DNA of 64,000 nucleotides, from the NCBI GenBank assembly GCA_025355965.1, contig JANXYR010000045.1:1-64000 (forward strand), read 5' to 3'. Positions 8,273 through 30,583 of the stretch are shown here, one piece after another (within the stretch, counting starts at the first letter, position 1; every line of letters begins with the position of its first letter). Below the pieces are notes generated by a model. That model searched no databases. It saw nothing but the letters and a program-made list of their open reading frames with translations, and was not told the origin of the DNA. The position numbers and the translations under genes were made by a program. Origin of the DNA: Geobacteraceae bacterium. GTDB taxonomy: Bacteria; Desulfobacterota; Desulfuromonadia; Geobacterales; Pseudopelobacteraceae.

Positions 8273-8335
8273 AATTGCCACACCTTTACCGAGAGCTATT
8301 TTGATCTAGGCCTTGGCGACAAGCATCACACCCAA

Positions 8336-10165
8336 TTACTCAACGGTAACACTTTTGGCCAGATTCCTCGGCTGATCAACATCAGTACCTTTTAGTACGG
8401 CAATATGGTATGCCAGAAGCTGTAGCGGCACCGAGAGCAACAACGGATCAAGATCTTCATCCAGATTCGGTATTTCAATAACAGTTTCCACCCTGTCTCG
8501 AATACCATCATCACCAAAGGAACAGACAGCAATCACACGGCCACCCCGGGCGATGACCTCCTCCATGTTAGAGAGTGTCTTTTCATAAGAGCTCCCTTTC
8601 GGAACCAACACGACTACCGGTACATCCTCATCAATCAGGGCGATCGGACCATGTTTCATTTCGCCAGCCGGATAACCTTCAGCGTGAATGTAGGATATTT
8701 CCTTGAGCTTGAGCGCGCCTTCGAGAGCGATCGGAAAATTTTTCCCACGACCGAGATACAAAAAATCACGAGCATTCATATATTTTTTTGCTACTTTTTC
8801 AGTAAATTCGTTCAGCTTCAGCGCCTCTTCCAACAAAACCGGCACCCTCTTGAGCGACGCTATCATTTGCTGACCATGGGCGACATCAATTGTGCATTTT
8901 GCGCGACCAAGACGGATAGTGAAAAGATATAGTGCCGTCAACTGTGTGACAAAAGCCTTGGTCGAAGCAACACCGATCTCCGGGCCAGCATGGGTGTAGA
9001 TAACACCGACAGATTCGCGGGCAATGGAAGAGTCAACCACGTTGCAAATCGCCATGTTCATGGCGCCGCGCGATTTTGCTTCGCGCAAGGCTGCAAGAGT
9101 ATCTGCTGTTTCACCTGACTGGGAAATGACGATTGCCAGGGTGCTTTCGTCCACAACCGGATTGCGATAGCGGAACTCGGATGCGATATCAACCTCAACC
9201 GGAATACGGCAGAGTCCTTCAATGTAGAACTTACCGACCAGAGCAGCGTGCCAGGAGGTGCCACAGGCGATAATTACAATCCGCTTGATTGCCGCCAGTT
9301 GTAGATCGCTGAAATGCAGATCTTCCAGATACACATCCCCATCGGTTTCCAGCAGTCGACCGGCGATCGTATCGCGTACTGCACGAGGCTGTTCGTGGAT
9401 CTCCTTCAGCATAAAGTGACGATAGCCGCCCTTTTCAGCCATCATGGGGGACCAGTCGATATGACGCGCTTTTTTATCCAGAGGAGTTCCGGAGATAGTT
9501 GAGAAATGGGCCGCACCATCCCTGAAAATCACAAATTCGCCATCCTCCATAAAAACCATCTCACGGGTATAGGCCAAAATAGCCGGAATATCGGATGCGA
9601 CGAAGAACTCCCCATCACCGAGTCCGACAACCATCGGCGAACCAAGCTTGGCCGCGATCAAGCAATCTGGATCCTTTTCGTTGAGAATACAAACTGCATA
9701 TGCCCCGCGTAATTGTGCCAATGACTGCCTGACCGCCATTTCAAAATCGGCTTCGGTAGAAAGGGTTTCTTCGATCAGATGCGCTATGACTTCTGTATCT
9801 GTTTCGCTCTTGAATATGTGGCCTGATTTTTTCAGCTGATCTTTCAGTTGCAGATAATTTTCTATGATGCCGTTATGTACAACAATAACCGGGCCAGCTT
9901 TGTGAGGATGGGCGTTGATTTCAGAAGGCCTGCCATGCGTTGCCCAACGGGTATGACCAATACCGACCGCCCCGACGAGCGGATGATCACGCAACATATT
10001 TTCAAGATTAATCAGCTTACCCTGGCTTCTGCGAATGGCGGACTCACCATCTGCCAGCGTGGCAATTCCGGCTGAGTCGTAGCCGCGATATTCAAGTTTC
10101 TTGAGTCCTTCCAAAATGATCGGGGTTGCCTGCTGACCTCCGATGTATCCAACAATTCCGCACAT
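8336..10165 (-). CDS. glmS: Glutamine-fructose-6-phosphate aminotransferase
   Basis: Makes glucosamine-6-phosphate for peptidoglycan and lipopolysaccharide precursors. 609 residues. It has an N-terminal class II glutaminase domain starting [10 protein letters not shown] (nucleophile Cys2), then two SIS sugar-isomerase domains ([39 protein letters not shown]) and the typical C-terminal [11 protein letters not shown]. It diverges from the penicillin-binding protein gene. glmU, the next nucleotide-sugar step, lies 38 kb away in this window. Confidence 0.97.
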
Positions 10166-10374
10166 ATATTCTCCTCAAAAACTTTAATAAAACTTATGAA
10201 ACATGAACGTAATACCATAAACAGCCCCCCTGTAGCACGATATTTTTGATGGTTAAGCCACCATCAACATGCTCCGCCGAGCGTTTCCTGATCTGAATAT
10301 GTTTGAATTCCTGAAATGATATGTTATTTTGCTGCGGTCGTAGGCCAATCAGTTTTTTCAGGAAGGTTTGTTCA

Positions 10375-12687
10375 ATGGAAAGAAAAATTCAATCCCCTAC
10401 CACAACTAATAGTTTTTTATCGACTTTGCTGTTGCTTGCTGTGACGCTGGCTGTAGTTTCTATTCTTGGCGTATCCGGCTACGTGTTTTATCTAATGGCC
10501 AAACTTCCAAGAGTGGATCGACTGGCTGACTATAAGCCTCCCATCGTTTCGCAGGTTTTTGGCGATGACGGCACTCTTGTCGGGGAGTTTTATCTGGAAC
10601 GCCGCATCGTAGTGCCGATTAACAAGATGCCACGCAAACTGATTCAGGCTTTTGTCTCGGCGGAAGATTCCAATTTCTATTCCCATAAGGGGATAGATTA
10701 TCTGGGGATTATGCGGGCGGCCTTCAAAAACATTATTTCCATGAGCAAAAAAGAAGGTGCATCCACCATCACTCAGCAGGTTACAAAATCCATGCTGTTG
10801 TCACCGGAGAAAAAGTTTTCCCGAAAAATCAAGGAGGCCATCCTTGCCAAGCGAATGGAGGAACGACTCTCCAAAGACGAAATCCTCTACCTGTATCTGA
10901 ACCAGATATACTTAGGGAGCGGAGCATACGGTGTACAAGCGGCGGCTGAGACCTATTTCGGCAAAAATGTCGAGCAGCTCAATCTGGCCGAAATGTCCAT
11001 GCTTGCTGGTCTTCCAAAAGCACCAAACACCTATTCACCCATCAAACATCTTGAAAAAGCCCGTGAACGTCAGAGTTATGTGCTCGATCGCATGACAACG
11101 GAGGGGTATATAACACCGGTCGAAGCCGACCACGCTAAAAATACTCCCATCGTCCTGCAGCCTATGAAAAAGGTCAACAACGATCAGTCAGCCTATTATC
11201 TTGAACATCTGCGGATCCAGCTGGAGCAAAAATACGGCGAAGACCAGCTCTATAAAGGTGGTCTGAAGATCTACACCACCATGAATGCCAACATGCAGCG
11301 TGCAGCCTACGAGAGCCTTCGCAAGGGACTTAAAGAGGTTGACAAACGCCAGGGATTTCGGGGACCTACAAAATATTTGAACGAAGCGGATGTCGATGCT
11401 TTTTGCAGTAAAGTTGAGGAGGGTATCGATTCCGTCGCACTTAAAACTGGTGAAACCTATCAGGGTGTCGTGGTCGGGTTCAACCCGGAAAAAGGCGAAG
11501 CTCTGATAAGAGTCGGAGAACGCAAAGGTTTACTGTCACGAAAAAATATGTCGTGGGCAGGCAGGGTCGGTATGACCAACCACTACGGAAAACCTGAAAA
11601 GGGAAACAGGGGGTTGACACTTGGTTCCGTAATTGAGGTATCGATCGTGACTCCGGAACTTAACAAGGAAGGGGCCCAGTTTGCGCTTGACCAGACACCC
11701 GAGGTGCAGGCAGCCCTCGTGTCCATTGACCCGCGTACCGGCGGTGTCAAGGCAATGGTCGGCGGCTACGACTTCAAGAAAAGCCAATTTAACCGCGCTA
11801 TTCAGGCCAGACGCAACGCCGGTTCGGCCTTCAAGCCAATAATTTATGCAGCGGCCCTTGATAAAGGGTTGACCCCGGCAACGGTCATCGAAGATGCGCC
11901 GGTCGAATACCCGGACGGTGCCGGCGGGGTTTGGAAACCTCAGAACTACGACCGTGAGTTTCGCGGTCCCGTGACCATGCGTGAGGCACTGACCTATTCC
12001 ATAAACATCGTCAGTGTCAAAATCATGGAGCAGATCGGAGCACAGTACACAGCGGAATATGCGAAGAGGCTGGGGTTCACATCGCCAATTCCGGCCAACC
12101 TGGCACTGGCGCTGGGAGCAGCCTCAATCTCCCCCTTTGAATTGACATCTGCATACGCTGTTTTTGCAAACGGCGGAGTGCTGACGCCTCAATACTTCAT
12201 CACCAAGGTGACCGATACTGATGGCACTATCCTTCAGGAAACGCCGCCGCCCGTACCGGTTCCGGTAATATCGCCCGAAACAGCTTATGTCATAACCAAT
12301 TTGATGCAGAGTGTTGTTGCAAGCGGTACCGGATATCGCGCATCCGTCATCGGACGACCGGTTGCAGGAAAAACCGGCACAACCAACGGGGCAAAGGATG
12401 CCTGGTTTGTCGGGTATATTCCGCAATTGGTAACAGGTGTCTGGGTTGGTTACGATCAGGAAAGATCTTTGGGAAGCGGCGGGACAGGCGGTCAGGCGGC
12501 CGCACCTATCTGGAGTGATTTCATGCAAAAGGCGATCATGAATCTACCGTCGGAAGATTTTACGGCACCGGAAAATGTTTCGTTTGTTCTGATAAATCCA
12601 CGCTCCGGCAAGCTTGCAAAAGAGGGTACTGCAGGGGCGGTTACGGAGTGTTTTATAAAAGGAACCGAGCCTTCTTCATACGACTAA
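10375..12687 (+). CDS. mrcA: Class A penicillin-binding protein 1A
   Basis: Bifunctional peptidoglycan glycosyltransferase and DD-transpeptidase anchored in the inner membrane. About 770 residues. There is one N-terminal membrane helix (around 20-45), then a GT51 domain with catalytic Glu97 in SAEDSNFYSHKG. The transpeptidase domain has SAFK (Ser484), YSIN and K666-TG. I choose the ATG at 10375, preceded by AGGAAGG, over an in-frame start 54 bases upstream. Its 3' end overlaps the convergent L,D-transpeptidase gene by four bases. Confidence 0.93.
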   Translation: MERKIQSPTTTNSFLSTLLLLAVTLAVVSILGVSGYVFYLMAKLPRVDRLADYKPPIVSQVFGDDGTLVGEFYLERRIVVPINKMPRKLIQAFVSAEDSNFYSHKGIDYLGIMRAAFKNIISMSKKEGASTITQQVTKSMLLSPEKKFSRKIKEAILAKRMEERLSKDEILYLYLNQIYLGSGAYGVQAAAETYFGKNVEQLNLAEMSMLAGLPKAPNTYSPIKHLEKARERQSYVLDRMTTEGYITPVEADHAKNTPIVLQPMKKVNNDQSAYYLEHLRIQLEQKYGEDQLYKGGLKIYTTMNANMQRAAYESLRKGLKEVDKRQGFRGPTKYLNEADVDAFCSKVEEGIDSVALKTGETYQGVVVGFNPEKGEALIRVGERKGLLSRKNMSWAGRVGMTNHYGKPEKGNRGLTLGSVIEVSIVTPELNKEGAQFALDQTPEVQAALVSIDPRTGGVKAMVGGYDFKKSQFNRAIQARRNAGSAFKPIIYAAALDKGLTPATVIEDAPVEYPDGAGGVWKPQNYDREFRGPVTMREALTYSINIVSVKIMEQIGAQYTAEYAKRLGFTSPIPANLALALGAASISPFELTSAYAVFANGGVLTPQYFITKVTDTDGTILQETPPPVPVPVISPETAYVITNLMQSVVASGTGYRASVIGRPVAGKTGTTNGAKDAWFVGYIPQLVTGVWVGYDQERSLGSGGTGGQAAAPIWSDFMQKAIMNLPSEDFTAPENVSFVLINPRSGKLAKEGTAGAVTECFIKGTEPSSYD

Positions 12688-19781: not shown

Positions 19782-21902
19782 TTACTTGGTCATCTTCAGG
19801 CCGCGCTCAGGGCGGGAGAAGTTGTGGCACAGTGAGCAGTCATACCCTTGGCTGTCAACGTGCTTGCTGTGTACTGAGGTGTAGCTCGGTACTGATTTGT
19901 TACCGTGGCACTGTACGCAGACAGTAGACGTTGCACCCTTGAGGGCGTAGCCGTAGTTAGTGATCAGTTTCAGCTTGGTTGCTGTTGCATTCGGGTGACA
20001 GGCGGCGCAGGCCAGAACGTTGCCGGTTGCAGGCGGAATCTGGTGGTTGAGTACCTGTAACTCGTCGGTTGTTACTGTCTGCCAGGCATCGCCGGTGCGG
20101 CCCATGTTGGCAAGACCGGTGGTTATTGCTGTTACATAGTTGCCGTCAGCGAAGAAGCTGGCGGTGGAGAGGCCGATCAGTTTGCCGGTGGTTGTGTCAA
20201 GTGGCTGCTGAGCGGTTTTGTACTTGAATGGGTAGAGCTTGGTGCCGGCCGGGTCAGTAATGGCGCCGTTCGGACGGGAGATCTTGTAGAAGCCGGTCGT
20301 AGGATCGATTACTGCGGCGTCAGTGAGGTTGTTGCCCCAGCTGGTGCCGTTCCAGAATGCATACTTAGGTGTGAGGTCATTGGCCTTTGTAGGCAGCGGC
20401 TCGTTGCGGAGCAGAGTTGCGTTCCACTCGAAGGATTCCCATGTACGGTTTGTTTCAGTTGCTTCTGTTGCGGTTGTGTCATTGGCATTCTTTGCGTATG
20501 TCGGCAGGTGGCAGGTCTGGCAGGCCACGCGTGCGGTGTGCTTGTTAACTGCAGTAGTTGTGTGACCACTGGTTACGCTGTTTTTGGTTGGGTGACAGGT
20601 GGTGCTGGAGCAGGTTACTGCTGTTGTTGAGTCAAGTGGGCGCAGGTCGGAACCGCGACCGGATACTTTGTGGTTGGTAAATTTGTGGCATGCCTGACAC
20701 TGTAGATTGCCACGGCTGGTTGCCATGTGGACGTCATAGAGGCTGTCTGCGGTTGTGCCGGATGCAAGTGCGATGTCGCCGCGTTTTACTGCGTCGCCGC
20801 CGCCAGCTTTGGCGTGGCAGCCGAGGCAGTTGTTGCGAACAGGTTTGATGACGGTGCGAACAACGTTGTTCATGTCAACGCCGACGTTAGGCTCAAAGAG
20901 GCCTGTTGTTGCATTACGGGTACGGGCATAAGGAGTTGCGATAGTGCCGTTTTTGTGGCACATGAGGCAGTCGATGCTGGCAAGCTGTGCGTCATCAGGA
21001 GTTGCAGTTGCAACAGGTTTTGCGCCGGTACCAGCGTGGCAGGCGCCGCAGGCTTTCCAGCCGCCAAGGATGTTGATGCAGTATGCGTTAAGTGCGCTGG
21101 CGCCGTCGAGGGAATCCATCTTGCCCTGTTTTGCGGCAGGACCGGTGGTCATTTTTGCGCCGGATGCCATCCACTGATAGTGAACGCCCTGGTACATGTC
21201 GGTTGACTGGGTGCGGTGGCAGGCAAGGCATGTGTTGTAGCCGGTCCAGACGAGGCTGGTGTTGGCTGCGTCGTGGGTTTTGGCAACGTTGATGGTGTAA
21301 AGTGCTGTTTTAACTATTTCGCTGTTGCCGGCGGTGTCGCGGGCAAAGTACTTCAGGGTTGTGGTGGCGGCGACAGGAATCGCTGCGCTGTAGACGGTTG
21401 AGGATGTGGTCGGGGTTGTGCCGTCTTTGGTGTAGTAGATGGTTGCTGTTTCATTGGCGGTCAGAGTTACGTTCTGTGCTGCGCTGTAGGTACCGGCGGC
21501 AGGTGCTGCGGTGGTGACCGGCGCGGTTGTGTCGGCAGCGGCTACGGCGAATGTTACTGAACCGGAGCCGGTGTCGGAACCGGATACGGAGCAGGTGTCG
21601 GTGTAGGTGCCGTAGGTGGCGCTGCTTGAAAGGGTGTAGCTGTAGGTGTAGGTGCCGGTGCTGCTTCTGGTCATGCTGGCCGCATTAACCTTGGTTGAAC
21701 CGGATGGATCTTTAATGGTGATTTTCGGGGTGCTGGATGGGTTTGAGAGTGAACCGCTCTTTTTGAAAAGGGCGGTGGTCTTTACGGTGGCGCTACGGGC
21801 GTAGGTGGCCTTGTCGGTCGTGACTGTGACGGTGTAGGTAGATGCATACGCAAATACCGGTAACAAGAGTGTTGCTAACAGCATCAAACAAATCTTCCTC
21901 AT
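19782..21902 (-). CDS. Exported multiheme cytochrome c with Ig-like and CHB_HEX_C-type domains
   Basis: 706 residues. The signal peptide is MRKICLMLLATLLLPVFAYA. An Ig-like beta domain covers about 21-125. A chitobiase/hexosaminidase C-terminal-like module (TTAPAAGTYSAAQNVTLTAN...YYTKDGTTPTTSS) covers about 127-205. The heme region follows with nine CXXCH motifs starting at C225, C285, C312, C359, C402, C461, C632, C662 and C689. One CX4CH, CSSTTCH, lies at 431-437. The adhesive N-terminal domains suggest cell-surface location, and a role in extracellular or periplasmic electron transfer is inferred. A sigma-54 promoter and three palindromic activator-type sites lie upstream; a terminator follows. 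Confidence 0.88.
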   Translation of the reverse strand: MRKICLMLLATLLLPVFAYASTYTVTVTTDKATYARSATVKTTALFKKSGSLSNPSSTPKITIKDPSGSTKVNAASMTRSSTGTYTYSYTLSSSATYGTYTDTCSVSGSDTGSGSVTFAVAAADTTAPVTTAAPAAGTYSAAQNVTLTANETATIYYTKDGTTPTTSSTVYSAAIPVAATTTLKYFARDTAGNSEIVKTALYTINVAKTHDAANTSLVWTGYNTCLACHRTQSTDMYQGVHYQWMASGAKMTTGPAAKQGKMDSLDGASALNAYCINILGGWKACGACHAGTGAKPVATATPDDAQLASIDCLMCHKNGTIATPYARTRNATTGLFEPNVGVDMNNVVRTVIKPVRNNCLGCHAKAGGGDAVKRGDIALASGTTADSLYDVHMATSRGNLQCQACHKFTNHKVSGRGSDLRPLDSTTAVTCSSTTCHPTKNSVTSGHTTTAVNKHTARVACQTCHLPTYAKNANDTTATEATETNRTWESFEWNATLLRNEPLPTKANDLTPKYAFWNGTSWGNNLTDAAVIDPTTGFYKISRPNGAITDPAGTKLYPFKYKTAQQPLDTTTGKLIGLSTASFFADGNYVTAITTGLANMGRTGDAWQTVTTDELQVLNHQIPPATGNVLACAACHPNATATKLKLITNYGYALKGATSTVCVQCHGNKSVPSYTSVHSKHVDSQGYDCSLCHNFSRPERGLKMTK

Positions 21903-22050: not shown

Positions 22051-22068
22051 TAGCAGTTACTGTTCCAA
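22051..22068 (-). promoter_or_regulatory. Sigma-54 promoter of the ten-heme cytochrome gene
   Basis: On the minus strand TTGGAACAGTAACTGCTA gives -24 GG (22066-22065) and -12 GC (22054-22053) at exact spacing. It predicts a start near 22041 and a leader of about 140 bases before the ATG at 21902. Confidence 0.6.
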
Positions 22069-22196
22069 TTTTTATATCAACGTGATAAATAATCATAACG
22101 CTTGCCGATTTATGTACTTAGCAAACATAGTTTTATCAACATATATTGTTTAGCAATGTAGTAATGGACCATTAATTAAAAGAATGGGGCATAAGG

Positions 22197-22266
22197 TGGG
22201 TGATATAGCCCATAATTATGGGTATCACCTAGGGGTATATAACCCAAGTATGAGGTATATACCCTA
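22197..22266. promoter_or_regulatory. Three 16-bp palindromic activator-type sites
   Basis: TGGGTGATATAGCCCA (22197-22212), AGGGGTATATAACCCA (22231-22246) and the weaker TGAGGTATATACCCTA (22251-22266). They lie about 145-200 bp upstream of the -24/-12 promoter at 22060, between the divergent cytochrome and lipoprotein genes. They share the TGGG-N8-CCCA form with sites at 25.8-26.1 and 30.5 kb. Confidence 0.6.
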
Positions 22267-22328
22267 GCGGGACGGGGAGCATCGTCGGGTCTTACAATTG
22301 ATTAAAATTCTATTCAGGTGGTGAAATT

Positions 22329-22586
22329 ATGCGAAGTGTAATTGCAGGTATGTTGATCGGTTTATTGGTGGTATCTGCTGGCTGTTCCAAGGATGGTGGG
22401 CAGGTTCTGATAGACACGGCAGATCTGGAGCTGAAGCAGAATAACCTTGAGCATGCGGTCCAGCTTTATTGGCAGGTGCTCGAAAAATACCCCAACAGCA
22501 AGTATTCCAAAATTGCCAACAAGCAGTTGGTAGAGATCGGTAAAAAACCGGAGGCTATAAATATACCGGTACTATACGGTAGGTAA
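22329..22586 (+). CDS. Small TPR-like lipoprotein
   Basis: 85 residues. The lipoprotein signal LLVVSAGC places the lipidated Cys at residue 19. One helical TPR-like hairpin follows (LELKQNNLEHAVQLYWQVLEKYPNSKYSKIANKQL). It begins with GTGGTGAAATT before the ATG. It is divergent from the ten-heme cytochrome gene and could use the same palindromic sites, although no -24/-12 promoter faces it. The function is unknown; an assembly or anchoring partner for envelope proteins is only a guess. Confidence 0.7.
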   Translation: MRSVIAGMLIGLLVVSAGCSKDGGQVLIDTADLELKQNNLEHAVQLYWQVLEKYPNSKYSKIANKQLVEIGKKPEAINIPVLYGR

Positions 22587-22599
22587 ATCCAAGAATAAA

Positions 22600-22621
22600 T
22601 AGGGGGGATTTCTCCCCCCTA
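22600..22621. terminator. Bidirectional terminator hairpin
   Basis: TAGGGGGGA pairs perfectly with TCCCCCCTA around a four-base loop. It lies between the 3' ends of the lipoprotein gene (plus) and toroid protein gene A (minus). Confidence 0.7.
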
Positions 22622-22677
22622 TGGAAATAAAACCCCATATCTAAATCACGAGTACGACAGGCCAACGGTTGTAGTCT

Positions 22678-23658
22678 TTATTTTCTGACCAGAGGATAGG
22701 TTTTGGGCTCCTTCAGCGTCCCGATACCGGCCAGAATGCGAATTCCGGCAGTGGTAGAGTCCGGGGTGGATGCGTCGCCCGGGATGGAACCAAAACCTCC
22801 CGTTTCAGCAAAGTAAAGTTGTTTCAAAATTCCAATCCCCTTTTTCTTGTCAACCTTCTTCGGCTCGCCAAGAAGTTTAAAGGTGTCGACAGCATAGCCC
22901 ATCTCTTCCAACATCTGAAGAACGTCGACTTGTTCCTTGTTCCCCGCCGCATAGCCGGTTCCGCTCAAGAATTTCAGCGCGTCCTGACGGGTCTTTTCGT
23001 CAAGTTTACCAAGCGCTTTTAGTATGTATACCGCCATATAGGTAAACTTGGCCTTGGGGACTGCCGTCCCTTTTACATAATCAAATCCTCCCGACTTGTT
23101 TTCAAAAGATTTTATGAAAGCGGCAGTCTTGACTGCATCAACCGCTTTCAGCTCTTTCATAAGGCTGAGGGAGTGGATGGCATAGTATGTGTTAACCAGC
23201 GTAGACTGCTTATTCTTGGCATCGAACCCGAAGCCGCCGTCGGCGTTCCGGAGGGACATGACATACGCCTTAGCCTGTTTAAGATCGGCCGCAGGGGGGA
23301 GATTGATCAGAGAAAGCGTATCAAGCGCCATTTCAGTGAAAATAATTGATGACTCCTTCTCAATCTTTTCGTTGGTAAATCCTCCGTCCAGACGCTGCAA
23401 ACGGCCGATAAAGGAGGCAATGTCCTTCTGTTTCTTCCCGTCAATTTTTGCTCCAAGGGCGCCGAGGGAGTAGAGATAGTCACGGGAGAATACCAAAGAA
23501 ACCGGAAAGTCCGGGCGACCCTCTATCGAGCGGGTGAACTTTTGTGTTTTTGGAAAATCAAAATCTCCAGCCACGGCGCCGGTAACGCCCGCGGTCCAGA
23601 GGAAGACCAAAGTGAGAAGCATTATCGTGGGCAGGTACCGTGTACGGTTTTTCAACAT
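22678..23658 (-). CDS. Exported alpha-alpha toroid protein (prenyltransferase/squalene-oxidase repeats), copy A
   Basis: About 326 residues, starting at the ATG at 23658 with AGGAG upstream. A signal peptide (LPTIMLLTLVFLWTAGVTGAVAG) is followed by the paralogue-conserved GDFDFPKTQKF. At least four toroid repeats are marked by LDGGF, ADGGFGF, GGFDYVKG and GGFGSIPG. The fold is that of prenyltransferase beta subunits. However, the Asp/Cys zinc ligands expected after the third GGF repeat are replaced (PKAKFTYMA), and the protein is exported where no prenyl donor is expected, so a binding role is more likely than catalysis. It follows cytochrome A and has a paralogue after cytochrome B. Confidence 0.8.
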   Translation of the reverse strand: MLKNRTRYLPTIMLLTLVFLWTAGVTGAVAGDFDFPKTQKFTRSIEGRPDFPVSLVFSRDYLYSLGALGAKIDGKKQKDIASFIGRLQRLDGGFTNEKIEKESSIIFTEMALDTLSLINLPPAADLKQAKAYVMSLRNADGGFGFDAKNKQSTLVNTYYAIHSLSLMKELKAVDAVKTAAFIKSFENKSGGFDYVKGTAVPKAKFTYMAVYILKALGKLDEKTRQDALKFLSGTGYAAGNKEQVDVLQMLEEMGYAVDTFKLLGEPKKVDKKKGIGILKQLYFAETGGFGSIPGDASTPDSTTAGIRILAGIGTLKEPKTYPLVRK

Positions 23659-23838
23659 AGTTTTTCTCCTGAGCATTTATTTGAAAAGGGAAAAAGTATA
23701 TCCACTTTTGTTTTTCGAGGCAATATAAAGAGTCGTAGTGTGGGAGAGTTCTCGTCTTGTGAATTATCGTCTCGTCGCCAAAAATACGGTGACTGATCAC
23801 TAAAAACAGGTTTTGCAGTTGATCTAGAAGGGAAAAAG

Positions 23839-23860
23839 AAGGGGGGATTTCTCCCCCCTT
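23839..23860 (-). terminator. Terminator hairpin between cytochrome A and toroid A genes
   Basis: AAGGGGGGA pairs with TCCCCCCTT. On the minus strand it is followed by CTTTTTCCC. It lies directly after the cytochrome A stop, so the downstream toroid gene would be read by partial read-through or from its own promoter. Confidence 0.7.
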
Positions 23861-23881
23861 TCACATTACAATGTTAAACTT

Positions 23882-25360
23882 TTACAGATGGTAAGGCTTC
23901 TGCCATACGGTTGACTTGTTTGGATGACAGAATTTGCAGACACCAAGTGGGTAGCTGCTGTTGACGCCAGCCGGGTAAGTAGCGCCAGCAACACTTGAGT
24001 TGGCAGCCGCTACACCGACATTATCAGCTGCAAGTGATGACGGACGCTCTGCATGAGGTGAACCGTGGCAAGCCTGGCAATCTATGCTCCCTTTGTGGCC
24101 ACGACCGTTGATGAACGCGCCTGCAAAGGCCGGGCTGGCCGGGTACACTGTTATCTTGTTTGAGTGACAGGCGAACGCGGACGTGATCCCAGCTGAAGGG
24201 CCGAGGCAGGATGGCAAAGTTGACATCTTCCAAGGTTGAGCTAACTGGTTGGTGGAAGTTCTCTGGGTCAGGTTGCCATGACAATCCATGCAGAACATTG
24301 TGGATGCTTTAGTTACATGAACCCCGCGATAGCATTGAATACCGTTGCCAGGGTGGCATTTGTAACAGTTGGTGGCGATGTTCGGATCATAGGTGGACTT
24401 GACCAGCGCGCTCTGGTTGTGGAAGCGGTGAAGCACGTCGGAGAAGGACATGGTAGATTTCTTGAGTGTGAAGGTTGCACCGGCAAGAAGCTTGGTACCT
24501 GCAGGCCACCCTGGGGCAGCGGCTTCGCCCATGGCTGGATCCCAGTGGCACCAGGAGCAGCGAACCGGGCCGCCAACGCCGTCGCCGTCAGGATCTATCA
24601 TGGCGATGTTGATGCCGCTACTGTTCTTTCCATGCATAACGCCAAGGGCTGCAAATGAGCCGGCCGGAGTGGCGGGGTAGCCCATTGCGGAGGCGAGTTG
24701 CAGGTGGCAGGAGCAGCATCCTCCAAAGGCGACCGGGACAACAGTGCTGGTGGAAGCAACGGTTGCGCCTGTAGAGTCTTTAACCGTCACGTTGGCGGTC
24801 AGGTATGGATCGCGGGTTGGGCCGCCCAGAGGGTCGGTCATGACGTCTTTGGCGGTATTACCGGTATGAAGCGGATAGGCGGGGATGCCGACCGCTTCAA
24901 ACGCGAGCAGATTGGAGTTATACCCCATGGTGCCGTAGAGGCCGTAACCAGCTAGGCCCATTACCTTGCCAGTCCCATCAACCGGCGCGAAACCAGGGAA
25001 AAGCTTCGGGGCATTGGCAATCCAGCTCGCAAAATAGGTGTCAGCCTTGAGGTTCGCATCGGTGTTTTCTACCATGGCATAGTTGATCGTGATCTTGTCG
25101 GTTGCAGCGGAAGTAGCGCTCATCACGACAGGGTCATTTCCACCGTATTTCAGTACCTGCGCCCTGACCGTGTTGAACGGCGGCAGCAGCAGGAAGCCTT
25201 CGAAAGTCGGGCAGGCGCAGTGCATGCCAAGGTCATTCCAGGCCAGGACCTTATACGTGGCACCCGGAGCAGGCTTGCTGCCGGCAATTGCCAAAGACAT
25301 TGCCCCGCTGACCAGAGTGGCGGCAACGGTTAACAAAACTTTTTTCATAATCTTTTTCAT
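23882..25360 (-). CDS. Exported multiheme cytochrome c, paralogue A
   Basis: 492 residues with an N-terminal signal peptide (about 1-26). The N-terminal half has few hemes and carries the motif NDLGMHCACPTF (C48, C50). Heme motifs: CCSCH (C215), CSWCH (C268), CYKCH (C332), CMDCH (C357), CQACH (C428) and CKFCH (C475). An unusual C385-X12-CH is also present (CLGPSAGITSAFACH). This gives six canonical hemes and a possible seventh. The ATG has AAGGAG upstream. The transcript probably starts at a sigma-54 promoter near 25668, leaving a leader of about 290 bases. It is a close paralogue of the gene at 28312-29760. Confidence 0.88.
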   Translation of the reverse strand: MKKIMKKVLLTVAATLVSGAMSLAIAGSKPAPGATYKVLAWNDLGMHCACPTFEGFLLLPPFNTVRAQVLKYGGNDPVVMSATSAATDKITINYAMVENTDANLKADTYFASWIANAPKLFPGFAPVDGTGKVMGLAGYGLYGTMGYNSNLLAFEAVGIPAYPLHTGNTAKDVMTDPLGGPTRDPYLTANVTVKDSTGATVASTSTVVPVAFGGCCSCHLQLASAMGYPATPAGSFAALGVMHGKNSSGINIAMIDPDGDGVGGPVRCSWCHWDPAMGEAAAPGWPAGTKLLAGATFTLKKSTMSFSDVLHRFHNQSALVKSTYDPNIATNCYKCHPGNGIQCYRGVHVTKASTMFCMDCHGNLTQRTSTNQLAQPWKMSTLPSCLGPSAGITSAFACHSNKITVYPASPAFAGAFINGRGHKGSIDCQACHGSPHAERPSSLAADNVGVAAANSSVAGATYPAGVNSSYPLGVCKFCHPNKSTVWQKPYHL

Positions 25361-25659
25361 TGGTTACTCTCCTTTTGTTGGACTTGCTAAGAAAGTTGAC
25401 ATCAGGTTTCTTGTTCTATTTACTCGGTGGTGCATAGATATGTTGCATGGTCAGGCTGACTACAATTAAGCGTACTGCTGGTCTCTGCAATAAATTTATT
25501 CCGCTTGCACCTCCTTGTTTAGATTTTGTGGCTCTGCTCGAATTTTCTCTTTTCAGTCTAACCTATGTAAGGACTTAGCGCGGTGTAACTGGCCAATCAC
25601 AGACTTTAAATTAAATGAACAACAGAAGATATCGCTTGCAAACTCACGGATAATTACCT
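25361..25659 (-). other. Long leader of the cytochrome A transcript
   Basis: About 290 bases between the predicted sigma-54 start and the cytochrome ATG. I looked for the conserved bases of GEMM (cyclic dinucleotide) riboswitches and did not find them. A GGAGGTG sequence near 25509-25515 (minus strand) is followed only by a very short frame. No gene is supported. Confidence 0.4.
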
Positions 25660-25676
25660 AGCATTTTACATGCCAA
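25660..25676 (-). promoter_or_regulatory. Sigma-54 promoter of the cytochrome A cassette
   Basis: Minus strand TTGGCATGTAAAATGCT has -24 GG and -12 GC at exact GG-N10-GC spacing. It is nearly identical to the promoter of cassette B at 30393-30409. Confidence 0.78.
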
Positions 25677-25765
25677 TTCTTAATGAGTTTCCAAATGAAG
25701 TATTTATGTCAGTAAAAGGACGACTATTCACTTATATGGAGATATATATTATATAGTAGCCTTGG

Positions 25766-26093
25766 TAGGGCATATCGCCCAACACCCATTATTTCATTGG
25801 TCTCGCTGTGCCAAATCACGCACATGCCTGGACATGTGAAATTGACCCGATATCTGCCTTTCTCGCAATAATGAATGTAAGAAAGTGAACGCTTTATAAA
25901 ACCGGGCAAAAGCTGAGCTTTACAAGCATGTTTATGATGTTGCTGAGTGGTGAATTTTAGTAAATACTAACCGAATCTTGGCTATCTTGGAGACTAGCGA
26001 CTCGCGCCACTGGGGCATATAACCCATGAATAAAGAGCTTTATTGGGGTATATAACTCATATAGCTAGGGTGGTTAAAGGGGTGTATGGCCCA
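25766..26093. promoter_or_regulatory. Four palindromic activator-type sites upstream of cassette A
   Basis: TAGGGCATATCGCCCA (25766-25781), TGGGGCATATAACCCA (26011-26026), TGGGGTATATAACTCA (26044-26059) and AGGGGTGTATGGCCCA (26078-26093). The last three are spaced 33 and 34 bp centre to centre, about three helical turns. The first lies 106 bp upstream of the -24/-12 promoter. No gene is supported in the surrounding 25677-26369 segment. Confidence 0.6.
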
Positions 26094-26369
26094 TAACAAG
26101 AGGAGGTTTTTGGGCGCATAGAAAAACTGCGGCCATTGGCATTGAGTCCAACAACAATCACAGAAAAGCCCTTCACCAGCGTAGCAAGTCTCGGATAAAT
26201 AGAGCAAATCATCGTTTGAGACCATAAACAACGCAAAACCAGCGACAGGCCGGCGGCTGTGAGCCTATTCAGAAACTAATGCCTATCAATGACATTCGGC
26301 TTTTTCACAGGGTCGATCAATGCTTTCGCCGATACGGAAGTAAAATCCGGCACAATACAGATTGCCTGT

Positions 26370-26972
26370 TTACTTCCCGAATTCCCTGGGAATAATGCCG
26401 ACCACCACACCGTTTTCGAATCTGAGAGTATAGCCGGGGAGATCTGGGCCGTAACGATAGGTCCACTCAACCACCGACACGGTAGTTTTGATCTTTACAT
26501 CGCCTACCACGGTCTCGGTCACCTTGTCAGCCTTATTCTCCTTCCCCAATGGCTCGCCGCACTTCATGAACGCAGCCAGCGGGGTGTCCCCAACAGCCAG
26601 AAATTCTCCATTACGGCAATTGTCGACACTGAAGTCCTGCACCGGCCCATAGCCGGGGCTGCCGATATCCATCAACTTGCCGTTTTCAAAGCGGAACGAC
26701 TGCATAAGCTCGGTAGGACCGGCTGTGTAAATCCACTCTTCAATTTTTGTGACCGTGGTGCTGGTAACCTTACCTTCAGTCTCTTTCACCGTCACTACGC
26801 GCTTTTCCTTTAGCATCGCCTCGCCGCACATTTTTGTAACTATCTCAGGAGTGTCGCCTATAGTCACCCCATCACCTTTGCAAGGGAATCCGAACGCAGG
26901 GGCAACTGCCAACAGAGCGCCAATGGTCGCCGTCACCATGTATCTACCGATTACCTTTACAGATCCTCGCAT
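26370..26972 (-). CDS. Exported protein with two DUF2845 repeats
   Basis: 200 residues. A signal sequence is followed by two tandem modules of the same kind. The first runs from FPCKGDGVTIGDTPEIVTKMCGE to LMQSFRFENGKL. The second runs from NCRNGEFLAVGDTPLAAFMKCGEP to YTLRFENGVV. Each has paired Cys residues and the GDT...CGEP signature of DUF2845. The function is unknown. It is the last gene of the cassette B gene string, about 200 bp after toroid protein B, and has no counterpart in cassette A. Confidence 0.8.
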   Translation of the reverse strand: MRGSVKVIGRYMVTATIGALLAVAPAFGFPCKGDGVTIGDTPEIVTKMCGEAMLKEKRVVTVKETEGKVTSTTVTKIEEWIYTAGPTELMQSFRFENGKLMDIGSPGYGPVQDFSVDNCRNGEFLAVGDTPLAAFMKCGEPLGKENKADKVTETVVGDVKIKTTVSVVEWTYRYGPDLPGYTLRFENGVVVGIIPREFGK

Positions 26973-27177
26973 GCCAATCCCCTCACTTTACCCAGACAAT
27001 TTTCAGGAATATTTTGTTTTAGCCTTACATCGGCATAGGACAAACCAAGTATTTGTCACCAGGCTGACCTGTGATGTGTAAAAAACAAGGGAAGGATTTC
27101 TCACCCCCTAAGGAAATACATAGCTGATAACCCCAAATTTAACACTACAGCAGTGCGACAGGCCGAGAACGCAATTT

Positions 27178-28158
27178 CTATTTTTTAACCAGCGAATATA
27201 CGCCCGGAGCCTTCAGTTTTCCGGCCCCGACGAGAAGACGGAGACCGAGGAAGGTCGAATCGGGGGTCGAACCGTACCCGGGAATGGGGCCAAAACCGCC
27301 ATTCTGCTTGATGTAAACCTGTTTGAGTATCCCATTAGCCTTTTTGGTGTCGATTGCACCTTTTGCTCCCAGCAGCTTCAGGGCGTCGATAGTGTAACCC
27401 ATCTCTTCAAGCATCTGAAGGGAATCTACTTTCTCTTTTGTCGACTTGCCGTAGGCTGAGGAATTGAGGTATTTCAGGGCGTTTGCTTTGGTTGCTTCGT
27501 CCAGCTTGCCTAGTTCTTTCAGGCTATATAGTGCCATATAGGTGAACTTTGCAGAGGCGACGCCTGTTCCCTTGACATAACCGAAGCCACCTTCTTTATG
27601 TTCAAACCCTTTGATGTAGGCTGCCGTTTTGGCTGCATCGACCATGTTGAGGCTGCTCAGAATACTAAGGGAGCGTACAGCGTTGTAGGTATTATTCAGG
27701 GAAGATTCTTTGGCATTCGCGCTGAAACCGAAACCGCCATCCGCATTTTTTAGAGATGTGATGAACGTCCTGGCGCGACCAAGGTCTATTGAAGGCGGAA
27801 GTTTAATCAGAACCAGCGTCTCCAGAGCATGGACCGCGTAGAGGATGGATGTTTCCTTGTCGTGTTTGTCGGAGGAGAAGCCGCCGTCGAGATGCTGGTT
27901 GGTTTTAATAAAGGCTTCGACAGCTTCCGCTTCCTTTGTGTTGACCTTGTCTCCGATGGAAATAAGGGAATAGACATAGTCGTGTGCCAGCACCATTGTG
28001 ACCGGAAAATCAGGACGGGTGTCCATTTCCCTCATAAAGACCTTGGTTTTTGCAAAGTCAAAATCTCCGGCACTCACATTGCTGACATTCGAAAGAATAA
28101 TGAATAAAAAAGCTGCCAGGGTAACAACCAAATGAAGGTAAATGCGGCATTGGCTCAT
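27178..28158 (-). CDS. Exported alpha-alpha toroid protein, copy B
   Basis: 326 residues, colinear with copy A at 22678-23658. The signal sequence ends near NVSAG, followed by the shared GDFDFAKTKVF and RPDFPV. Repeats are marked by LDGGF, ADGGFGF, GGFGYVKG and GGFGPIPG. As in copy A, the zinc-ligand positions of true prenyltransferases are replaced (ASAKFTYMA). It follows cytochrome B after a hairpin terminator. The strict pairing with the cytochrome in both copies suggests the two products act together in the envelope. Confidence 0.8.
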   Translation of the reverse strand: MSQCRIYLHLVVTLAAFLFIILSNVSNVSAGDFDFAKTKVFMREMDTRPDFPVTMVLAHDYVYSLISIGDKVNTKEAEAVEAFIKTNQHLDGGFSSDKHDKETSILYAVHALETLVLIKLPPSIDLGRARTFITSLKNADGGFGFSANAKESSLNNTYNAVRSLSILSSLNMVDAAKTAAYIKGFEHKEGGFGYVKGTGVASAKFTYMALYSLKELGKLDEATKANALKYLNSSAYGKSTKEKVDSLQMLEEMGYTIDALKLLGAKGAIDTKKANGILKQVYIKQNGGFGPIPGYGSTPDSTFLGLRLLVGAGKLKAPGVYSLVKK

Positions 28159-28265
28159 AATGTATTCTCCAGTATATATTTACCTGCAATTTGTTGGTTA
28201 TTCTAGCAGAACGGTCTCATAAAACAAACAAACTTCATCGGATTGAAACCAATTTTAAGAAAAAA

Positions 28266-28291
28266 ATGGGGAGGAATTGTTTCCTCCCCAT
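28266..28291 (-). terminator. Terminator between cytochrome B and toroid B genes
   Basis: ATGGGGAGGAA pairs perfectly with TTCCTCCCCAT around a four-base loop. On the minus strand it is followed by TTTTTTCTT. It occupies the same place as the hairpin in cassette A. Confidence 0.85.
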
Positions 28292-28311
28292 ATCCGCAGA
28301 ATAAGTTTGAA

Positions 28312-29760
28312 TTAGTCGCCAAACATTACGCGGTTGGACCAAACGTTGGACTCGTTGGTATGACAAACCTGGCAACTTCCGAGGGCATAGGTTTTGTCTT
28401 TGCCTGAAGGAAAGGTGGTGCCGAGTGACGTGTGGATATTGGAGTTCTGGACGTTATCCAGAGCCTGTGCTGAAGGATTCTCAGCATGGGCTGAGCCATG
28501 GCAGCTCTCGCAGAGAACGACTTTGGAGCCCATACCGCCCCTGCCGTTGATATATTTGCCACCAAATGTGGAAGTCCAGGTGGTCTGCGGAATGTTCAGA
28601 GACGCATGACAGGTGAATGCTGAGGTAATACCGGCTGACGGCCCGTTACAGGACGGCAGGGAGGCTGCCTGCCAAGGTGTGACCATTTGTTTGCCGGCGA
28701 TCCTCTGGGTCAGGTTACCGTGGCAGTCAACGCACCAGATGGCTGTTTTGGCTTTATGAGCGCCGCGGTAGCAATCGACCTTGTTGCCGGGGTGGCACTG
28801 ATAGCAGTTGGTGGAGATGTTGGCGTCATAGCTGGATTTAACCAGAGCGCTGTTGTTGTGGAACGTGTGCAGTACATCGGAGAAGGAACGTGTAGACTTC
28901 TTGAGCGTGAAGGTGGCGCCGGGAAGAAGCTTGGTTCCTGTAGGCCAACCTGGGGCAACGGTTTCGCCCATGGCAGGGTCAGCGTGGCACCACGAGCAGC
29001 GAACCGGTCCGCCAACGCCGTCGCCGTCAGGATCGATCATGGCGATGTTGATTTTACTGCTGTTCTTGGCATGCATGGTGCCGAGAAGTGCAAACGAACC
29101 GGCAGGAGTTGCAGGCAAACCGTTTGCAGCTGCCAGTTTCAGGTGGCATCCGCAGCAACCACCGAAGGCAACCGGGACCACGGTGCTAGTAGTACCGATT
29201 ACCGCGCCGGTGCTGTTCTTTACGGTAATATTTGCAGTCAGGAACGGATCACGATTTGGTCCACCCAACGGATCAACCATGACGTCTTTTGTCGCATTGC
29301 CGGTGGTAACGGGATAGACAGGGATCCCTTCAGCCTTCCAGGACATCGACTGGCTGTCATAGGTCATGGTGTCAGCCAGTTTTTTGCCTTTGAGACCGAC
29401 CACGTTGCCGGTAGCGTTCACCGGAGCAAACCCGGGGAAGAGCTTAGGTGCATTTTTTATCCAACTGGCAAAGTAGGGGTCAGCCTTAAGGATCGCATCG
29501 GTGTTTTCCGCAATTGAATAACTCACGGTGATGCCGCTGGAGACAACGCTAACGCTGTCGCTACCCTTCTTGAGAACTTGTACCCGGATTGTGTTGTATG
29601 GCGGGAGAAGCAGGAAGCCGTCAAAGGTTGGACAGGCGCAGTGCATGCCGAGATCGTTGGTAGCCATGACCGCATACGGTGGCGTTGCGGCGGCGGCAAG
29701 ACCAGCGAAGATGGTAGTTGCGGCGATTGCAGCCAATGTACGTAAAATTGTTTTCTTCAT
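28312..29760 (-). CDS. Exported multiheme cytochrome c, paralogue B
   Basis: 482 residues with a signal peptide (MKKTILRTLAAIAATTIFAG...). It is colinear with paralogue A, including NDLGMHCACPTF. Hemes: CCGCH (C202), CSWCH (C255), CYQCH (C319), CVDCH (C343), CESCH (C417) and CQVCH (C463). The same odd motif is kept as C371-X12-CH (CNGPSAGITSAFTCH). The TNCYxCHPGN...CYRG block is also conserved. A strong AAGGAGG precedes the ATG. It follows two small genes behind the cassette B sigma-54 promoter. The electron partner is unknown. Confidence 0.88.
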   Translation of the reverse strand: MKKTILRTLAAIAATTIFAGLAAAATPPYAVMATNDLGMHCACPTFDGFLLLPPYNTIRVQVLKKGSDSVSVVSSGITVSYSIAENTDAILKADPYFASWIKNAPKLFPGFAPVNATGNVVGLKGKKLADTMTYDSQSMSWKAEGIPVYPVTTGNATKDVMVDPLGGPNRDPFLTANITVKNSTGAVIGTTSTVVPVAFGGCCGCHLKLAAANGLPATPAGSFALLGTMHAKNSSKINIAMIDPDGDGVGGPVRCSWCHADPAMGETVAPGWPTGTKLLPGATFTLKKSTRSFSDVLHTFHNNSALVKSSYDANISTNCYQCHPGNKVDCYRGAHKAKTAIWCVDCHGNLTQRIAGKQMVTPWQAASLPSCNGPSAGITSAFTCHASLNIPQTTWTSTFGGKYINGRGGMGSKVVLCESCHGSAHAENPSAQALDNVQNSNIHTSLGTTFPSGKDKTYALGSCQVCHTNESNVWSNRVMFGD

Positions 29761-29802
29761 TGTGAATCCTCCTTAAAGTTTGGTTGAACTGTTGGCGACC
29801 GT

Positions 29803-29913
29803 TTAGCAAAGACTGCCGGGGCAGGGTTTCCTTCCCCAAAAGCCTCCATGGGAATAGGCGCATTTCACATGGTCAAAGCTTGATTCCTCCTTTATGTATA
29901 GGCGGTTACGCAT
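29803..29913 (-). CDS. Candidate 36-residue peptide upstream of cytochrome B
   Basis: A short frame beginning with ATG at 29913, preceded by GGAGG four bases upstream. It ends 42 bases before the cytochrome B ATG. The peptide begins MRNRLYIKEESSFDHVK and its C-terminal half is rich in Gly and Cys (CAYSHGGFWGRKPCPGSLC, three Cys). There is no signal sequence. It could be a real small protein, a translated leader controlling cytochrome B, or chance. No equivalent is seen in cassette A. Confidence 0.4.
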   Translation of the reverse strand: MRNRLYIKEESSFDHVKCAYSHGGFWGRKPCPGSLC

Positions 29914-30018
29914 TAGTCCTCCGGATACAACTAGAGACGCAACTATAGTGATCGTCTTGTATTTAAGAGCGCATTTGAGCAAATTGATTGTTCTTTACTT
30001 CTGTGTCAGGAGTGTTGT

Positions 30019-30327
30019 TTAAGAAAAGGAGACAGGTGGAGCGCGGGAAATCAGATTGGGAGATAGAATAATGCTTACGAGGGTGGCTACTTCGGGAATG
30101 TACGCTTGGACTATAACCTGAGATTGCTTCCTGAACCAGAATAATGGTTCAGGAACAACTGAAATGAAGATCATATCCGGATTGACGAGGTCAAGGTCTG
30201 CGTCGTTGGCTGAAATGCTGGGGGAGGCGGTGAGGTCTTCAAATGAGTTGAAAGCTTCTGCTGTTGTTGTAAAAAGGAACAGGACAAGAATGAACATCGA
30301 CAAGAATTTTATCATGTCAATCTTCAT
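30019..30327 (-). CDS. Small exported hypothetical protein
   Basis: 102 residues, starting at the ATG at 30327 with AGGAGG upstream. The signal peptide is MKIDMIKFLSMFILVLFLFTTTAEA. The mature part is acidic, then hydrophobic near the C terminus (VQAYIPEVATLVSIILSPNLISRAPP). It has no Cys, so it is not a cytochrome. It is the first gene after the cassette B sigma-54 promoter and lies upstream of cytochrome B. I recognise no family. Confidence 0.6.
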   Translation of the reverse strand: MKIDMIKFLSMFILVLFLFTTTAEAFNSFEDLTASPSISANDADLDLVNPDMIFISVVPEPLFWFRKQSQVIVQAYIPEVATLVSIILSPNLISRAPPVSFS

Positions 30328-30392
30328 GTTTGCCCCTCCTATCATGTAAGGTGATTGTTAAGTATACTGGTTTCATACACAGTATTAGCCTA

Positions 30393-30409
30393 GGCATTTT
30401 ACGTGCCAA
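30393..30409 (-). promoter_or_regulatory. Sigma-54 promoter of the cytochrome B cassette
   Basis: Minus strand TTGGCACGTAAAATGCC matches TGGCACG-N4-TTGC closely and has exact spacing. It lies about 66 bp upstream of the small exported protein gene. Confidence 0.82.
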
Positions 30410-30495
30410 CTCCTAATTAAAAGCCTGAGAAAGCGTAACCACTGTGATTATATGCATATTCGTTATACATCTATACGGGATGCGCATACTGGCGC

Positions 30496-30583
30496 TGGGG
30501 CATTCCACCCAACAACCATTTTTCACCAGGTCCCGCTGCGTCATATCGAGCACCTACTCCATTTATCTGGGGCAAATAGCCCA
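30496..30583. promoter_or_regulatory. Two palindromic activator-type sites upstream of cassette B
   Basis: TGGGGCATTCCACCCA (30496-30511) and TGGGGCAAATAGCCCA (30568-30583). The first lies 103 bp upstream of the -24/-12 promoter, matching the 106 bp in cassette A. The remaining 30346-30668 sequence holds no supported gene. Confidence 0.6.

Follow-up and report, generated by a model that had tools for sequence, protein, structure and literature searches.

A candidate NtrC-type activator for palindrome-associated sigma-54 promoters of multiheme cytochrome units in a Geobacteraceae bacterium

Which regulator switches on the three multiheme cytochrome units on the minus strand of contig JANXYR010000045.1 of a Geobacteraceae bacterium? 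The units lie in a stretch of 64,000 nucleotides, here called the window, and each is preceded by a -24/-12 promoter and by several copies of a 16-bp palindrome, TGGGNNATATNNCCCA. Judging from sequence comparisons, the three units (multiheme cytochromes and their helpers) very probably belong to one sigma-54 regulon, activated by an NtrC-type enhancer-binding protein (EBP) encoded at positions 11128-12639 of contig C14 of the same genome. The switches co-travel in evolution with the gene of this protein, hereafter the C14 EBP, which is therefore the likely master switch.

Palindromes and promoters in the window and the genome

The first-pass annotation had assigned to each unit a GG-N10-GC promoter and two to four upstream palindromes. 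All three promoters are present, scoring 9, 10 and 10 matches out of 12 against the consensus TGGCACGNNNNTTGCW; matches with a score of at least 9 are called sigma-54-like below. Units 1, 2 and 3 have three, four and two copies of the palindrome, located 130-184, 91-403 and 88-160 bp upstream of the promoter, respectively. Nine sites therefore exist, as had been claimed, all of them degenerate forms of TGGGNNATATNNCCCA, and the arms TGGG-N8-CCCA are exact in only four of them (22197, 26011, 30496 and 30568). Among the others, one arm mismatch is found in four sites and two in site 22251. A common centre ATATA/CATAT was too strong a claim, since ATAT is found in six of the nine. The strict TGGG-N8-CCCA definition was rejected because five of the nine sites fall outside it. 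With up to two mismatches to TGGGNNATATNNCCCA allowed, the window contains 11 sites, nine of which are inside the upstream regions of the three units.

Across the genome (3.35 Mb, 86 contigs), where the reversed pattern served as a control and the context of every place was viewed, the palindrome exceeds random frequency: 19 places have at most one mismatch to TGGGNNATATNNCCCA, versus 5 for the reversed pattern. The pairing of palindrome and promoter proposed for the window recurs genome-wide, with 12 of the 19 places being intergenic and pointing at eight sigma-54-like promoters that score 9-11 of 12. These serve the three window units, two cytochrome operons on C14, a cytochrome gene on C28, a subtilase gene and a gene for a GGDEF regulator. 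The proposed envelope electron-transfer targets thus hold for six of the eight promoters, which precede cytochrome genes, but not for those of the subtilase and the response regulator-PAS-GGDEF protein. The other seven places, about the number predicted by the reversed control, are in open reading frames (ORFs; C17, C57, C60, C74 and C77), intergenic without a promoter (C71) or at a contig edge (C63). The genome encodes RpoN (PF04552, 214.7 bits, C78:14053-14529). Two other patterns were of little use: GGGNNATATNNCCC with one mismatch gave 124 places, and GGG-Nx-CCC was raised at N6, N7 and N8 alike because GGGG...CCCC runs are counted at several spacings, the CCC-N-GGG control giving about two thirds as many.

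The candidate activator and its co-conservation with the site

An activator inside the window was rejected, as contig C61 has no Sigma54_activat match; the whole genome has 27. The C14 EBP consists of REC (88.2 bits), Sigma54_activat (231 bits) and HTH_8 (56.5 bits), the last being a Fis-type helix-turn-helix (HTH). Its Walker A motif is GESGTGK and its loop is GAYTDA, a variant of GAFTGA; among the relatives listed, most have GA[FY]TDA and a few have GAFTGA or other forms. The gene lies inside a cytochrome cluster, followed by genes for Sel1, 13-heme, 4-heme, NHL, 5-heme and further cytochrome proteins. A histidine kinase gene (L073:7482-9008; HAMP, HisKA, HATPase) lies about 2 kb upstream. 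The sensor half of its product has a CXXCH motif and is weakly similar to the Mcp40H-20 sensor (E 1.2e-4, 22.7 bits versus a curated cut-off of 27). In G015, G019 and G026, ORFs with one CXXCH that look similar by eye neighbour the ortholog; the kinase near the G053 ortholog carries PAS domains. That the C14 kinase and the C14 EBP are signalling partners is a guess.

Nine orthologs of the C14 EBP were found in 58 genomes, with 52-87% identity (50-88% in the alignment) and a small step to the next group at 46-48%. The phospho-acceptor D54 is invariant in all 10 aligned proteins, and so is the recognition helix SRDTLRYRMKK, the C14 protein included. Among the alignable EBPs of its own genome, only the C14 EBP has this helix, and the next EBP group in the relatives has, where alignable, GIDAFRYRMKK or GVDAFRYRMKK. 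Twelve rows were left out of this comparison (L083, L085, L092, L095, L096, L101, L103, L104 and L107 of relatives, where the ORF obtained was the wrong one, and, from the same genome as the window, L038-L040, EBP matches with no alignable HTH); the proteins of G039 and G057, to which L083 and L085 correspond, were aligned from other loci. The 46-48% group was not accepted as this regulator: its helix differs where alignable, and exact sites in genomes devoid of the ortholog are mostly in ORFs (29 of the 34 examined).

The orthologs mark the genomes that have site/promoter pairs, which makes this gene the co-conserved NtrC-family gene that the first-pass annotation expected. Exact sites were searched as exact matches to TGGGNNAWWTNNCCCA; a site outside ORFs of at least 150 aa counted as intergenic, and a promoter scoring at least 9 within 40-450 bp as paired. 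In the ten ortholog-bearing genomes, 36 of 40 places were examined (all but three in the window and one in G026); 18 are intergenic, 17 of them with a sigma-54-like promoter. In the 48 ortholog-free genomes, 34 of 76 places, taken in listing order, include five intergenic sites and a single pair. Pairs, which were not all inspected individually, thus number 17/36 versus 1/34 (Fisher p 1.3e-5; 15/34 and p 4.4e-5 without the window genome).

A sample of 141 genomes of the order, 26 of which have an ortholog (E <= 1e-135), gave the same picture. Exact sites average 3.68 per genome in the 25 genomes with the ortholog (window genome excluded) versus 1.43 in the 115 without it (p 1e-6), and the reversed control totals 6 and 39, respectively. 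In genus g9 (Geomonas) alone, the 12 ortholog-bearing genomes average 4.25 exact sites versus 1.9 in the 7 others (p 0.011). Sites also cluster near the gene: in 15 ortholog-bearing genomes with fully listed sites, again without the window genome, the 10 kb around the ortholog hold 15 of the 61 exact sites, where 0.29 would be expected. Nine genomes contribute these 15; the other six have none there. A count over ten ortholog-bearing genomes gave 12 of 40.

The architecture itself is conserved in relatives. In G015, the octaheme ortholog is preceded by three sites (one with three mismatches) and a promoter, TGGAACGATTTCTGCT, ordered as in unit 1 and at nearly the same places: sites at -373, -338 and -307 versus -363, -343 and -309, promoter at -162 versus -164. 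The G057 octaheme ortholog repeats this order with two sites and a promoter. Upstream of the hexaheme orthologs, two in G053 and one in G057, are -24/-12 elements, a single site with at most two mismatches (L045:1225) and further palindromes, noted by eye, that match inexactly. Spacing is 20-41 bp in 25 of 29 pairs of neighbouring sites from regulon loci, and 30-35 bp in 16 of the 25 (sites with up to two mismatches, pairs 14-90 bp apart, no promoter required), as stacked dimers would give.

Similar pairs occur beyond the order. A scan of HTH regions in named genomes, some of which overlap the samples above, was followed through its best 80 loci. The exact helix SRDTLRYRM is present in 27 of the 80 loci, and 15 of these 27 carry 27 intergenic pairs versus one for the reversed pattern. 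The remaining 53 loci have eight pairs in four loci, three of them with EBPs 50-54% identical to the C14 EBP, versus none reversed. Genes for 4-, 6- and 12-heme proteins are among those that follow such promoters, the labels of their loci being Geobacter, Deltaproteobacteria, Proteobacteria, Nitrospirae and unplaced bacteria; pairs beside such EBPs are also found in loci labelled Competibacteraceae. The gene after the promoter has no CXXCH in the loci labelled Latescibacterota, Methylomirabilota and Gemmatimonadota. The regulator is present in Geomonas diazotrophica, Geomonas paludis, Geomonas edaphica, Geomonas azotofigens and Geomonas oryzae, among others. Geomonas orthologs are 55-58% identical to the C14 EBP, and their predicted targets are SurA-like isomerases, a Sel1 gene and, in strains that have them, the hexaheme and octaheme cytochromes.

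Alternative explanations and known systems

Several observations weigh against activation of the three units by the C14 EBP. The -12 element is never TTGC in the window (CTGC in unit 1, ATGC in units 2 and 3). No exact site occurs in G085 and G088 despite their ortholog, G076 has five sites and no ortholog, and the sole exact site of G019 lies in coding sequence. All exact sites of G015, G050, G074, G075 and G077 are more than 10 kb from the ortholog, and the sites of the G053 octaheme ortholog are downstream of the best promoter candidate. A different gene with the same distribution would be compatible with the co-conservation. The genomes are related and are not independent data points, and thus the p-values are optimistic and serve only as guides.

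The alternative that survives best accepts promoters and palindromes as real, bound by another EBP or by a non-EBP of the CRP type that shares the range of the C14 EBP. Other EBPs are plentiful among the 27 Sigma54_activat matches, and exact sites are absent from some ortholog-bearing genomes. A non-EBP has to be considered because identical TGGG-N8-CCCA arms, around a GC-rich centre, were proposed as a possible site of the CRP-type Clp of Xanthomonas in PMC10714925, the one paper of the open-licence literature in which we found these arms. Yet exact sites cluster near the C14 EBP ortholog, none of the other Sigma54_activat matches of the window genome has a place with at most one mismatch within 10 kb, the recognition helix accompanies the palindrome, and the sites precede sigma-54-like promoters, which need an EBP. 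We consider another binder improbable. Chance coincidence of common GGG/CCC palindromes with common GG-N10-GC matches finds support in the background itself: of 34 background sites, 6 have a sigma-54-like match in range, as have two of the seven unpaired places of the window genome (score 9 in both; weak and at the contig edge on C63, in coding sequence on C60). However, the excess of forward over reversed places, the 27 pairs versus one at helix-bearing loci and the scores of at least 9 at all eight promoters make this very unlikely. That the window architecture was merely left over from gene duplication and reflects no regulon is the least probable alternative: units 2 and 3 are paralogous with partly alignable proximal upstream regions, but unit 1 is unrelated in sequence, and the pairing repeated at five more promoters (on C14, C28 and C19) and in other genera already contradicts it.

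Activation by the C14 EBP remains the preferred reading, and the single dedicated activator postulated by the first-pass annotation gains a named candidate that would contact the sites. Its closest known parallels are NtrC-family activators (for example 4l4u and 1ny5; NtrC-type 5m7n), which share REC, AAA+ and Fis-type HTH and likewise use palindromic sites upstream of -24/-12 promoters. Unlike them, the C14 EBP would have TGGGNNATATNNCCCA as its site and multiheme cytochrome genes as targets, and it has GAYTDA for GAFTGA. BccR, too, is an EBP of a cytochrome operon, a sigma-54-type activator of cbcBA in Geobacter sulfurreducens. In Desulfovibrio, PMC4641369 lists the GAYTDA variant for DVU2275, and DVU3142 of D. 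vulgaris, likewise a sigma-54 EBP, has as its predicted target a multiheme cytochrome operon, that of the octaheme Ohc complex. DVU3142 is divergent from its predicted ohc targets. The G. sulfurreducens RpoN consensus is TTGGCACGGTTTTTGCT, and cytochromes are among the affected genes; in the parts of that paper used here, no dedicated cytochrome activator or enhancer site is given (PMC2725144). The passages on 'sigma' in PMC5539420, PMC10553843 and PMC12977616 yielded none on a sigma-54 regulator. The open-licence papers searched gave no description of this regulon. The sigma-54 promoter with an NtrC-type activator is a known type of switch; the activator-site pair and the target set appear to be new.

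Regulon genes and the proposed switch

The genes of the three units are listed in Table 1 with the promoters and sites. Export of their products is suggested by N-termini inspected by eye.

Table 1. Coordinates of the predicted promoters, putative enhancer sites and genes. Window positions carry no prefix; mismatches (mm) refer to TGGGNNATATNNCCCA; P, among the 12 paired places.
Feature	Position	Strand	Remarks
Sigma-54 promoter, unit 1	22052..22067	-	GG-N10-GC, TGGAACAGTAACTGCT; 9/12
Sigma-54 promoter, unit 2	25660..25675	-	GG-N10-GC, TGGCATGTAAAATGCT; 10/12
Sigma-54 promoter, unit 3	30393..30408	-	GG-N10-GC, TGGCACGTAAAATGCC; 10/12
Putative enhancer site, unit 1	22197..22212	.	0 mm; P
Putative enhancer site, unit 1	22231..22246	.	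1 mm; P
Putative enhancer site, unit 1	22251..22266	.	2 mm
Putative enhancer site, unit 2	25766..25781	.	1 mm; P
Putative enhancer site, unit 2	26011..26026	.	0 mm; P
Putative enhancer site, unit 2	26044..26059	.	1 mm; P
Putative enhancer site, unit 2	26078..26093	.	2 mm
Putative enhancer site, unit 3	30496..30511	.	exact arms, centre ATTC
Putative enhancer site, unit 3	30568..30583	.	exact arms, centre AAAT; P
Octaheme-type cytochrome, unit 1	19782..21902	-	706 aa, 9 CXXCH; signal-peptide-like start (by eye)
Cytochrome, unit 2	23882..25360	-	6 CXXCH; signal-peptide-like start (by eye)
Alpha-alpha toroid (Prenyltrans) protein, unit 2	22678..23676	-	signal-peptide-like start (by eye)
First ORF, unit 3	30019..30345	-	108 aa, no Pfam match; between promoter and cytochrome
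Cytochrome, unit 3	28312..29760	-	6 CXXCH; paralog of 23882-25360
Alpha-alpha toroid protein, unit 3	27178..28158	-	paralog of 22678-23676
DUF2845 protein, possibly last gene of unit 3	26370..26972	-	operon membership from position and strand only
NtrC-type response regulator, candidate activator	C14:11128-12639 (L073:11128-12639)		REC, Sigma54_activat, HTH_8
Paired site	C14:2707		subtilase; P
Paired site	C14:15034		4-heme cytochrome; P
Paired sites	C14:23372 and 23396		multiheme; P
Paired site	C28:2709		multiheme; P
Paired site	C19:128303		response regulator-PAS-GGDEF; P
Ninth promoter, weaker site	C14:27990		multiheme; 2 mm

The unit 1 cytochrome aligns with the octaheme structure 1sp3 over residues 224-640 (E 2e-41), and its score against the octaheme family TIGR04315 is 236 bits, under the cut-off of 375. 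No sequence match to units 2 and 3 was found when the unit proteins were compared. Units 2 and 3, judged by the identities of their cytochromes (62-64%) and toroid partner proteins (53%), are an old duplication, and the architecture that they share is therefore not independent evidence. Close relatives of the hexaheme cytochrome (57-67%) are found only in G053 and G057 among the 58 genomes, the window genome included, the rest being at most 46% identical. Both genomes, like G055, belong to genus g9 and to a family other than that of the window genome, and hence a between-family transfer of the hexaheme-plus-toroid operon (window 22678-30345) is possible. A search of solved structures for the hexaheme cytochrome returned nothing useful. 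Past the 3' ends of both unit 2 genes, toroid and cytochrome, are two identical GGGGGGATTTCTCCCC stretches (22602-22617 and 23841-23856) that look like terminator stems.

Large multiheme genes of the regulon on C14 (L074:3662-7063 and 8203-12351) and C28 (L075:3103-6981) contain one in-frame TGA, as do genes in L109, L116 and L117. The TGA context, W-TGA-xPSxRQ, is conserved in all seven slices viewed, and a hairpin follows about 10 nt after it, with stem changes on both sides (by eye). These genes look like selenocysteine cytochromes; an Rfam SECIS scan of L074, L075 and L116 gave no match. The genome has two tRNA-Sec matches above the Rfam cut-off, C28:12987-13080 and C50:42851-42944 (78.3 and 71.9 bits), one of which is about 6 kb from the TGA-bearing C28 cytochrome gene. 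A selenocysteine cytochrome, ExtKL, was previously proposed in G. sulfurreducens (PMC5877670). In genus g9, a site/promoter pair precedes genes for SurA-like peptidyl-prolyl isomerases (L114:7294-8262 and L157:1206-2000), possibly folding helpers for exported cytochromes, and ORFs resembling them come after the pair in L115 and L160.

We infer the following switch, from DNA binding and looping to activation, kinase pairing and signal. Sigma-54 RNA polymerase would sit at the -24/-12 elements, and dimers of the C14 EBP would bind the tandem palindromes about 90-400 bp upstream. The bound EBP would loop to the polymerase, with ATP hydrolysis driving open-complex formation. The nearby CXXCH-bearing histidine kinase may phosphorylate the EBP, and since the motif is in its sensor half, cytochrome supply would be tied to the redox state of the envelope; the redox signal is a guess from the heme-binding motif. 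Tentatively, one ancient activator family (helix SRDTLRYRM, mostly GA[FY]TDA) might have kept both the palindrome and the task of controlling multiheme conduits, including selenocysteine types, in Geobacterales and beyond, with a heme-motif kinase reading the envelope redox state in the lineage of the window genome.

How metal- and electrode-respiring bacteria, with their many genes for multiheme cytochromes, select the ones to be made is largely open. For these bacteria, the analysis offers a candidate activator, a 16-bp site, a list of eight promoters in one genome and orthologs in Geomonas. With activator, site, targets and orthologs named, a cytochrome-specific switch becomes directly testable, and the heme-motif kinase adjoining the C14 EBP provides a concrete idea of how redox sensing may enter it.

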